This document shows, piece after piece, positions 3,211 through 25,765 of a stretch of DNA of 32,662 nucleotides. Each line of letters begins with the position of its first letter. Position 1 is the stretch's first letter. The stretch comes from Alphaproteobacteria bacterium. Its GTDB lineage: Bacteria > Pseudomonadota > Alphaproteobacteria > Sphingomonadales > SMXR01. Below the pieces are notes generated by a model. That model was not told the DNA's origin, did not search any database, and was given only the letters and a program-made list of their open reading frames with translations. The translations under genes were made by a program, and so were the position numbers. The DNA lies in NCBI GenBank assembly GCA_030634465.1, contig DAOWAS010000011.1:1-32662 (forward strand), in the 5' to 3' direction.

Positions 3211-4539
3211 ATGAGACGAGAAGCTCGTCTAGAGGCAGCCATAGAGATTCTGGATATTGTGGTCAAAGAAGCCAAGGCTGATGGGCATAGTGTTCCTCAG
3301 GTTTTGCGCTATTATTTTAAAGGCAAGCGATATGCAGGCAGTGGTGACAGGCGCGCTATTGCCGACACTGTTTTTGAAATTTTACGCCATGTAATTGTTT
3401 TAGAATGGGCCATTAACGAAGCTGGCGGCGAGGCAACAGGCCGCATGTTGCTTATTGCCGAAGTTTCGTGGTCAGGTGGCGACCTGCCGCTTATTTTTGG
3501 TGCTGGTCGTTATGGCCCCGCACCACTAACTGATGAAGAGCGTGGCATAATGTGGGCATTGCCTGAAAAGCAAGATGCCCCCGAATGGGCAAAACACAAT
3601 TGCCCTGAGTGGATGGAAGAGCCACTGCGTAAGCGTTTTGGCGAAACGTTCAATAAAGAAATGGACATTTTAGACAGCCGCGCGCCTTTTATTGGCAGGG
3701 TTAACACCCTTAAGGCAAAAGATGTCGATGTGGCAAAAGCCCTGACCGATGTGGATATAACTTGTCGTATTTCCAGCCGCACCCCGCATTGTGTGTTTTT
3801 ATCAAGCTCACGGGTTACAAATCTTGATATTTATTTAAATGGTGGTTTGGAAATTCAGGATCAGTCGAGCCAAATTGCTTCCTTTTTAGTGGCGGCAAAG
3901 CCCGGCCACAAGGTGCTAGATCTGTGCGCTGGTGGTGGTGGCAAATCGTTGGCTGTTGCTGCCACGATGAAAAATGATGGCGAAATAATAGCCACCGATA
4001 TAAACCCAAAACGAATTCATGACCTAGGTGAGCGCGCCAAAAGGGCAGGGGTTAGCATTATCGAAGCAAAGGAAATATCTAAAGGTGAAGCTTTTTACCG
4101 TGATGAAGTGTTAACACCATTAAAAGACAGCCAAGACAGGGTTATTCTTGATGTGCCGTGTTCAGGGTCTGGCACATGGCGGCGCAGCCCCGAACTGCGG
4201 TTGCGAATGACCAGTGAGCGGGTTGATGAGATAATTACCACCCAGCGTAACCTGCTGCATGAAGGTGCAGATTGCGTTAAAATTGGCGGCAGGCTTATCT
4301 ATATGACCTGTTCAATTTTACCTGACGAAAATGAAGAGCAGGTAAAATGGTTCTTGGACGATATGAACAAGGATGGCGAAAAATGGGTGTTGGTTCCTTA
4401 TAAATTTGTCTGGCAAGATGCTGGCATTATGTCAGAGCCACGACAAACCATTTCTTATATACCCGAGTGCTTGCAACTTTCGTCTGCTAGACACGAATCA
4501 AATGGGTTCTTTACCGCAATATTTGAACGTGTTGCCTAA
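3211..4539 (+). CDS. rsmB: RsmB/NOP family rRNA cytosine-C5 methyltransferase
   Basis: Predicted SAM-dependent m5C methyltransferase; the closest well-known relative, RsmB (Fmu/Sun), modifies C967 of 16S rRNA. The 442-residue protein has a helical N-terminal domain (about 1-145) in the place of the NusB-like domain, then a Rossmann domain with the SAM loop LDLCAGGGGKS (about 236-246). Both conserved cysteines of the NOL1/NOP2/Sun family are present: C317 in DVPCSGSGTWRRSP (motif IV) and C367 in MTCSILPDENE (motif VI). It sits between guaB and guaA, an order I associate with several alphaproteobacteria. The exact target base is inferred from family membership only; another m5C site is possible. 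The ATG at 3211 has only a weak ribosome binding site. Confidence 0.88.
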   Translation: MRREARLEAAIEILDIVVKEAKADGHSVPQVLRYYFKGKRYAGSGDRRAIADTVFEILRHVIVLEWAINEAGGEATGRMLLIAEVSWSGGDLPLIFGAGRYGPAPLTDEERGIMWALPEKQDAPEWAKHNCPEWMEEPLRKRFGETFNKEMDILDSRAPFIGRVNTLKAKDVDVAKALTDVDITCRISSRTPHCVFLSSSRVTNLDIYLNGGLEIQDQSSQIASFLVAAKPGHKVLDLCAGGGGKSLAVAATMKNDGEIIATDINPKRIHDLGERAKRAGVSIIEAKEISKGEAFYRDEVLTPLKDSQDRVILDVPCSGSGTWRRSPELRLRMTSERVDEIITTQRNLLHEGADCVKIGGRLIYMTCSILPDENEEQVKWFLDDMNKDGEKWVLVPYKFVWQDAGIMSEPRQTISYIPECLQLSSARHESNGFFTAIFERVA

Positions 4540-20406: not shown

Positions 20407-20461
20407 GTTTCTCTCCTTTGCTGATCGCTTGACATCCACCATGGATGCCACCTCCAGCTTT

Positions 20462-20500
20462 CCTAACGCAAGTTTTTACACCTGCGAGGCGGTTTCTAGG
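20462..20500 (-). promoter_or_regulatory. probable S6:S18-binding mRNA leader of rpsF
   Basis: On the minus strand, 56 bp before the rpsF ATG, CCTA (20500-20497) pairs with TAGG (20465-20462). These enclose an unpaired stretch GAAACCGCCT on the 5' side and then a 7-bp hairpin, CGCAGGT / ACTTGCG (one G-U) with loop GTAAA. A CCG trinucleotide in a 5' bulge next to a hairpin is the described signature of the mRNA motif bound by the S6:S18 complex, mimicking the 16S site. The fit is by eye, so this is an inference. If real, it would repress rpsF-rpsR translation when S6:S18 is in excess. A possible promoter (TTGTAC, 17 bp, TAGAAA; 20521-20493) overlaps it and could not produce the full motif. Confidence 0.5.
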
Positions 20501-20529
20501 CCTAAATGGGCTAAAGTACAAGCTTTATT

Positions 20530-20774
20530 TAGCACTCACGGCAGAAAACTGCGTTTTCGCCTCCGTGGGGGCCTCGTATTAACTCGGACGGCCGCTTGGC
20601 CTACGTTACTCAGCTCCTATTTCAACTAGCTCGTTGTGTATAAACATTTCGGACGAGTAGCTATAATAGCTACGAGGACTAGCGACCAAGCGGGAGCGCA
20701 GCCTGCGTGGCGCCAAAGGGCGAAGCCCTGAACGCAATTAAGCGGTTCGTGCTAACGAACTAGCGTGAGAGCTA
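20530..20774 (+). repeat. structured TIR-bounded interspersed repeat, copy 1
   Basis: A 245-bp element filling most of the gene-free stretch between rpsF and fabD. Its ends are TAGCACTCACG (20530-20540) and CGTGAGAGCTA (20764-20774), inverted repeats with one mismatch, both ending in TA. Inside, from left to right, are a variable hairpin (about 20545-20570), a conserved block ending in GGCC-GCTT-GGCC (20590-20601), a variable AT-rich spacer, and a 91-bp core (20650-20740). The core holds hairpins GTAGCTA-TAA-TAGCTAC and AGGGC-GAA-GCCCT. A final hairpin GTTCGT-GCTA-ACGAAC (20745-20760) precedes the right end. CCTCGTA and ACTCG in the left block can also pair with CGAGT and TACGAGG in the core. 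No ORF is encoded. The second copy lies at 25502-25721 in the opposite orientation. Confidence 0.85.
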
Positions 20775-20817
20775 TAAAAAAACCCCCTTGCACTTTTTAT
20801 GGTGAGAGGTTATTCGA

Positions 20818-20846
20818 TTGCTAAGTTTTTTGGTATTTATTATAAT
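20818..20846 (+). promoter_or_regulatory. strong sigma-70 promoter for fabD
   Basis: TTGCTA (20818-20823) and a consensus -10 TATAAT (20841-20846) are separated by exactly 17 bp. The fabD ATG is at 20872, with AGGGG six bp before it, so the untranslated leader would be only about 18 bases. The promoter lies just outside the right end of repeat copy 1. Confidence 0.7.
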
Positions 20847-20871
20847 TAATTTTCTCAAGTAGGGGTTAAAA

Positions 20872-25501: not shown

Positions 25502-25721
25502 TAGCTCACGGCTGAAACTAAAGTTTCGCCGTTCCCTAATTGCGTTCAGGGCTTACGCCCTTTGGCGCCACGCAGGCTGCGCTCCCGCTTGGTCGCTAGT
25601 CCTCGTAGCATTATGCTACTCGTCCGTTTTTCTCTATAAATTTATACTGAGTAACGTAGGGCGTATGCCCGTCCGAGTTAATACGAGGCGTATGCGCAGG
25701 CAACTCTTCTGCCGTGAGCTA
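25502..25721 (-). repeat. structured TIR-bounded interspersed repeat, copy 2 (inverted relative to copy 1)
   Basis: A 220-bp element between mltG and the convergent SDR gene, reading in the opposite direction to copy 1. Its ends are a perfect 11-bp inverted repeat, TAGCTCACGGC (25502-25512) and GCCGTGAGCTA (25711-25721). The core (25537-25626, 90 bp) matches copy 1 except in the centre of one hairpin and in one loop: GTAGC-ATAAT-GCTAC is one base shorter on each arm, and AGGGC-GTAA-GCCCT has a GNRA-type loop in place of GAA. The left-block hairpin is GGGC-ATAC-GCCC (25670-25659), where copy 1 has GGCC-GCTT-GGCC. The end hairpin (25513-25530) is GAAACT-TT-AGTTTC in a GGC/GCC clamp. The flank CAAGCTTTTATTTA before 25502 resembles the flank of copy 1 at its own left end, extending the terminal inverted repeat. 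No transposase is encoded. Confidence 0.85.
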
Positions 25722-25765
25722 AAAGAGAAGCAGTCAGCCTGTGCGGCTTCCAGTTATATATATAT

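Follow-up and report, generated by a model that had tools for sequence, protein, structure and literature searches.

An apparently undescribed, multi-copy mosaic family of intergenic hairpin repeats in an alphaproteobacterial genome

In alphaproteobacteria, the common kind of REP is CGTC-tagged, a group that includes dRS3 and the rickettsial repeats RPE-4 and RPE-6 (PMC3733652). These REPs are defined by a hairpin flanked on one side by the unpaired tag CGTC (or TGTC/CCTC), with a stem of 8-9 bp that starts with complementary A-T residues, and by the tail CCA (PMC3733652). No dedicated transposase is reported for them (PMC3733652), and how CGTC-type repeats spread is therefore an open question. 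The GTAG-tagged REPs and REPINs are paired with RAYT transposases (PMC3733652, PMC2817692), while the neisserial intergenic mosaic elements (NIME) are composed of dRS3 and other repeats (PMC3733652).

Here, we discuss a family of repeats found in a draft alphaproteobacterial genome of 2.16 Mb (160 contigs, 95.8% complete; denoted G000). The window, i.e., the whole stretch of DNA that was analysed, comprises 32,662 nucleotides of this genome. An earlier note on the window had described two highly structured, non-coding intergenic elements, related by inversion and sharing near-identical blocks and terminal inverted repeats (TIRs) of about 11 bp. This description held: the two elements are intergenic, do not encode protein and align in inverted orientation with 82% identity over 171 bp (blastn, E 2e-40). 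Their components are the following.

20530-20774, + strand: element 1, a composite repeat between the divergent genes rpsF and fabD (similarity search; rpsF-fabD gap longer than in relatives)
20530-20540, + strand: left TIR of element 1, TAGCACTCACG (sequence; end family)
20571-20613, - strand: module B of element 1, CTGAGTAACGTAGGCC..CGTCCGAGTTAATACGAGG (exact core at 20572-20590; module B has 22 copies in the own-genome loci retrieved)
20651-20739, + strand: module A (core) of element 1 (H1 at 20651-20679, H2 at 20682-20697, H3 at 20701-20711, then an extended H4)
20742-20774, + strand: right-end hairpin of element 1 (GTTCGTGCTAACGAAC) and right TIR CGTGAGAGCTA at 20764-20774 (sequence; end family)
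25502-25721, - strand: element 2, a composite repeat between the convergent genes mltG and SDR (similarity search; comparison of the mltG-SDR gap)
25502-25512, + strand: TIR of element 2, TAGCTCACGGC (exact-pattern search)
25537-25625, - strand: module A (core) of element 2 (similarity search, covariance model)
25648-25689, + strand: module B of element 2 (exact core at 25670-25688)
25711-25721, - strand: TIR of element 2, TAGCTCACGGC, which reads GCCGTGAGCTA on the + strand (exact-pattern search)
25732-25753, - strand: fragment of module C (CTGGAAGCCGCACAGGCTGACT) just outside element 2 (exact match; module C consensus and covariation)

The blocks common to the two elements are a 21-bp segment (GCCTCGTATTAACTCGGACGG), a 14-bp segment (CCTACGTTACTCAG) and a core of ~90 bp that differs by small indels only. 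The TIRs match at 11 of 11 positions in element 2 (TAGCTCACGGC/GCCGTGAGCTA) and at 10 of 11 in element 1 (TAGCACTCACG/CGTGAGAGCTA). Because the module C fragment lies beyond the right end of element 2 (25732-25753), the repeat tract extends past the limits given in the earlier note.

Copies were counted from similarity searches of the draft genome and in the loci around the matches. Element 1 yielded 49 matches, element 2 yielded 54 and a nearby repeat cluster, used as query, yielded 42, where each match is a matching piece rather than a whole element, and the suggestion that there are many such repeats in the genome was thereby confirmed. Module A itself is present in 18 copies. Several matches are located at contig ends, so that further copies are probably missing from the draft. 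The TIR 10-mer TAGCTCACGG has 49 exact matches in the draft genome, as compared to 0 for a reversed control. Element ends, 69 of which were gathered from the loci retrieved, consist of TAGCTCACGG or close variants, start with TA in a T-rich context and are usually preceded by TTTWTTTA.

A side-by-side reading of the copies revealed that the TIRs enclose modules, referred to as A, B, C and D, which vary in order, number and orientation, i.e., at least four hairpin modules are shuffled separately between common ends. Module A follows the pattern GGACGAG-stem-CGAGGAC TAGCGACCAAGCGGGAGCGCAGCC TGCGT GGC ..., module B the pattern CTGAGTAACGTAGGSC..GSCCGTCCGAGTTAATACGAGG, module C is CTGGAAGCCGCTAGGCTGACC followed by a variable hairpin, and module D is CAGCCTTGAGCGCGTTCCATGG ... 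ACCGGGAAC. Modules are also found away from full-length TIR-bounded elements, and elements are nested inside other elements (e.g., TAGCTCACGGCTGTTTTTTAGCACTCACGGCAG); the composite units occupy A/T-rich positions between genes and within one another. The own-genome loci retrieved contain six copies of a 12-bp palindrome, GCAYCTAGRTGC, all of them at hairpin tips. At the end of contig C139 (locus L061), a composite element is found in direct repeat with a period of ~130 bp.

That the elements are highly structured was supported both by folding and by covariation. As single-stranded DNA, both are more stable than their dinucleotide shuffles (z -4.0 for element 2 and z -2.2 for element 1), and the hairpin stems are kept by compensatory change. 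In module C, the proposed pairs are formed in 100% of the cells, five pairs are changed on both sides and 25 cells harbor double changes. The covariation score of this module is 0.431, compared to a shuffled mean of 0.144, and is reached in 0 of 500 shuffles, which ignore the kinship of the copies; pairing falls to 21-39% in a control where the partners were slid. Its second hairpin displays six different stems with a nearly constant loop, and module D covaries as well. In module A, pair 3-18 is changed from G-C to A-U in 5 of 29 distinct sequences and broken in none of these, while across all 101 sequences it takes the form A-T in 8 and G-T in 2 and is broken in 1. Pair counts led to the rejection of the single long helix that free energy favours for module A, the first pair of which is broken in five; in the supported fold H2 is GCGACC-AAGC-GGGAGC and most H1 stems are GGA-stem-GAC. 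The stems of module A would thus contain tandem G.A mismatches that only one of the two strands could form. When hairpins with tandem G.A and 4-bp inner stems were sought in an unaligned, genome-style scan, no general excess was seen, because the inner stems of module A are shorter than 4 bp, and the G.A pattern is therefore read from the alignments of modules A and C and not from a genome-wide test.

Insertion was addressed by comparison with genomes of other genera in the same family, where the gene order is conserved. The gap between the convergent mltG and SDR genes measures 280 bp here as against 8, -4 and 14 bp in three genomes of the family, and that between the divergent rpsF and fabD measures 420 bp as against 121-258 bp in four relatives. 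These sizes are consistent with insertion of elements of ~220-245 bp at both sites in the window. The junctions are not base-exact because the relatives are other genera, and neither a base-exact empty site nor a target duplication was seen in the comparison with them. The mltG-SDR gap is 297-447 bp in three further same-family genomes (L194, L195 and L197), where it is filled by different palindromic repeats, a pattern that would mark it as a common landing place for unrelated REP-like repeats. The gaps in L194 and L195 include hairpins of the CGTC-REP form (GTCATTCCCGC..GCGGGAATCCA; ATTCCCGC..GCGGGAAT).

Like the CGTC REPs, the repeats described here are short intergenic hairpins, mainly alphaproteobacterial and often located between convergent genes, with no dedicated transposase known. 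However, module A hairpins lack the A-T stem start and the CCA tail: H1 stems begin with G-C, are 2 to 8 bp long and have the tail TCG or TCC. The CGTC tag appears to be absent or partial: the complement of H1 reads CCTC-stem in the own genome, CGTC in one Hyphomicrobiales genome and AGTC or GGTC in others. The hairpins are, furthermore, combined in TIR-bounded mosaics. High-copy, clustered hairpins are shared with the GTAG REPs and REPINs, some families of which also have unpaired dinucleotides beside the stem, but GTAG is absent from the hairpin base in most genomes (H2 is preceded by GGACTAGCG or GACTTAGCG, and by GTAG only in two Rickettsiales contigs) and there is no Y1/RAYT gene in the G000 assembly or beside the modules of the other core-bearing genomes. 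Lacking the GTAG tag, the RAYT link and the CGTC stem start and tail, the family would not be placed in either the GTAG or the CGTC group described in PMC3733652. The NIME are alike in that several repeat families are mosaicked in varying order between genes with short inverted-repeat flanks, although the sequences and the host class are different and no sequence relation was seen.

A search of Rfam gave no match over the window at the gathering score and none for 20450-20850 at E up to 5, the elements had no match in phage and plasmid records, and the core strings had none in paper text. As judged against these sources, the family is apparently undescribed. The earlier proposal of a new non-autonomous element stands in that no described family was matched and the gaps of relatives support insertion, novelty being relative to the sources searched.

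High copy number, a mosaic make-up, compensatory stems and insertion-compatible gaps at both window sites are the observed properties of this family, which is probably a lineage-expanded, non-autonomous mobile intergenic mosaic that works like REP/BIME or NIME repeats. Its composite unit would consist of TIRs (of the TTTATAGCTCACGG type) around hairpin modules that are shuffled among copies. One strand would fold into hairpins with tandem G.A mismatches, and a trans-acting nuclease or transposase may recognise this folded strand in its single-stranded form, by analogy with RAYTs acting on REPs.

Another explanation, possible though rather unlikely, is that the elements are classical MITEs, in which a DDE transposase, perhaps an IS630-like one that duplicates TA, binds the TIRs in double-stranded form, with the inner hairpins carried along as passengers. 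The inverted repeats that bound whole elements fit this explanation, as do ends that begin with TA in a T-rich context, and the earlier comparison with MITE or ERIC-like elements was apt as to TIRs, structure, a size of 70-300 bp and the lack of coding capacity. The comparison fails for the interior, which is a modular and variable mosaic of at least four shuffled modules instead of one homogeneous element. Modules that occur apart from full-length TIR-bounded elements and that are conserved by structure argue against passengers, and no autonomous copy or parent transposon was seen among the TIR positions. Among the ends and gaps compared, no target duplication was seen.

The repeats are not confined to the two copies of the window or to a single genome. 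The exact module A 22-mer was found in 41 contigs from 14 other genomes, every one titled alphaproteobacterial, including Rhodospirillales, Rickettsiales, Hyphomicrobiales, Emcibacter, Maricaulis, Asticcacaulis and others, where the copies often form arrays of ~71 bp. An exact 35-mer of the core had no match in the genome contigs searched. Of 385 genomes sampled from the whole class, 7 were matched by a covariance model built for module A; three of the seven had single matches only, with E values of about 2e-4 to 7e-4, and those two that were inspected with a clear reading (L156 and L158) look like chance matches. Among close relatives, only G000 has clear matches to module A, and G001 has a single weaker one; short relatives of module B were found in one same-family and one same-order genome, and the module B pattern had no match in viral contigs. 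Module A thus appears to be patchily spread in Alphaproteobacteria, with a core that is, in the copies compared, near-invariant across distant orders. Head-to-tail arrays of three to five module A units with a period of ~71-77 bp are found in some marine alphaproteobacterial MAGs (L100, L094, L069 and L077). Tandem units in another genome (G405, contig C7; L155, L162 and L166) have an intact module A frame and a different H2 (TAGCGCCGTTGAGGCGCGCAGCC), as if swapped.

Tentatively, and we consider this unlikely, the repeats could form a class of their own throughout Alphaproteobacteria, made up of modular mobile hairpins with strand-specific tandem G.A stems. An unknown single-strand enzyme would then spread them and also insert small palindromes at hairpin tips, with elements growing and recombining one module at a time.

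The placement of the mosaic repeats relative to genes bears on a doubtful explanation, namely that they are structured RNAs in untranslated regions, with roles in mRNA stability, attenuation or regulation, and owe their multiplication to a benefit for the host. Such a role would suit the compensatory stems, the fold specific to one strand and the enrichment between convergent genes, where 16 of the 38 module A groups with both neighbours readable are located (p 0.02 vs 25%), a position also reported for REPs (PMC3733652) and in line with a REP-like family as well. However, the strand bias is weak (the left gene is in sense in 26 of 38 groups, p 0.03), one copy lies between divergent promoters, the element is absent from the gaps of relatives and the distribution is patchy. 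RNA-mediated copying by a reverse transcriptase, the intermediate of which would also suit the strand-specific fold and compensatory stems, is highly improbable given that the G000 assembly harbors no RVT_1 protein. With no reverse transcriptase and a weak strand bias relative to genes, the earlier idea of a mobile structured RNA gained no specific support.

As to the mobiliser of the mosaic family, a RAYT was rejected: the G000 assembly has no Y1 (RAYT-type) transposase, and although Y1 transposases are present in 7 of the 14 core-bearing genomes, in none of the 14 does a module core adjoin a Y1 gene. The mobiliser has therefore been lost, is unassembled or belongs to another family. A gene between neighbouring repeat clusters was also considered and rejected, as the open reading frames there look, by eye, like ordinary host genes, including lookalikes of prfB, a penicillin-binding protein, dsbB and an acyl-CoA dehydrogenase.

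The repeat is real, multi-copy and apparently both undescribed and mobile. Near-identical copies, compensatory changes that define strand and fold, and a near-invariant cross-order core make the family good material for an enzyme hunt; even without a new enzyme behind its movement, annotators would gain one more repeat family to recognise. In a Hyphomonadaceae genome (L088, ~3450-3470), a module A core is located inside a long open frame and may lie within the real gene.
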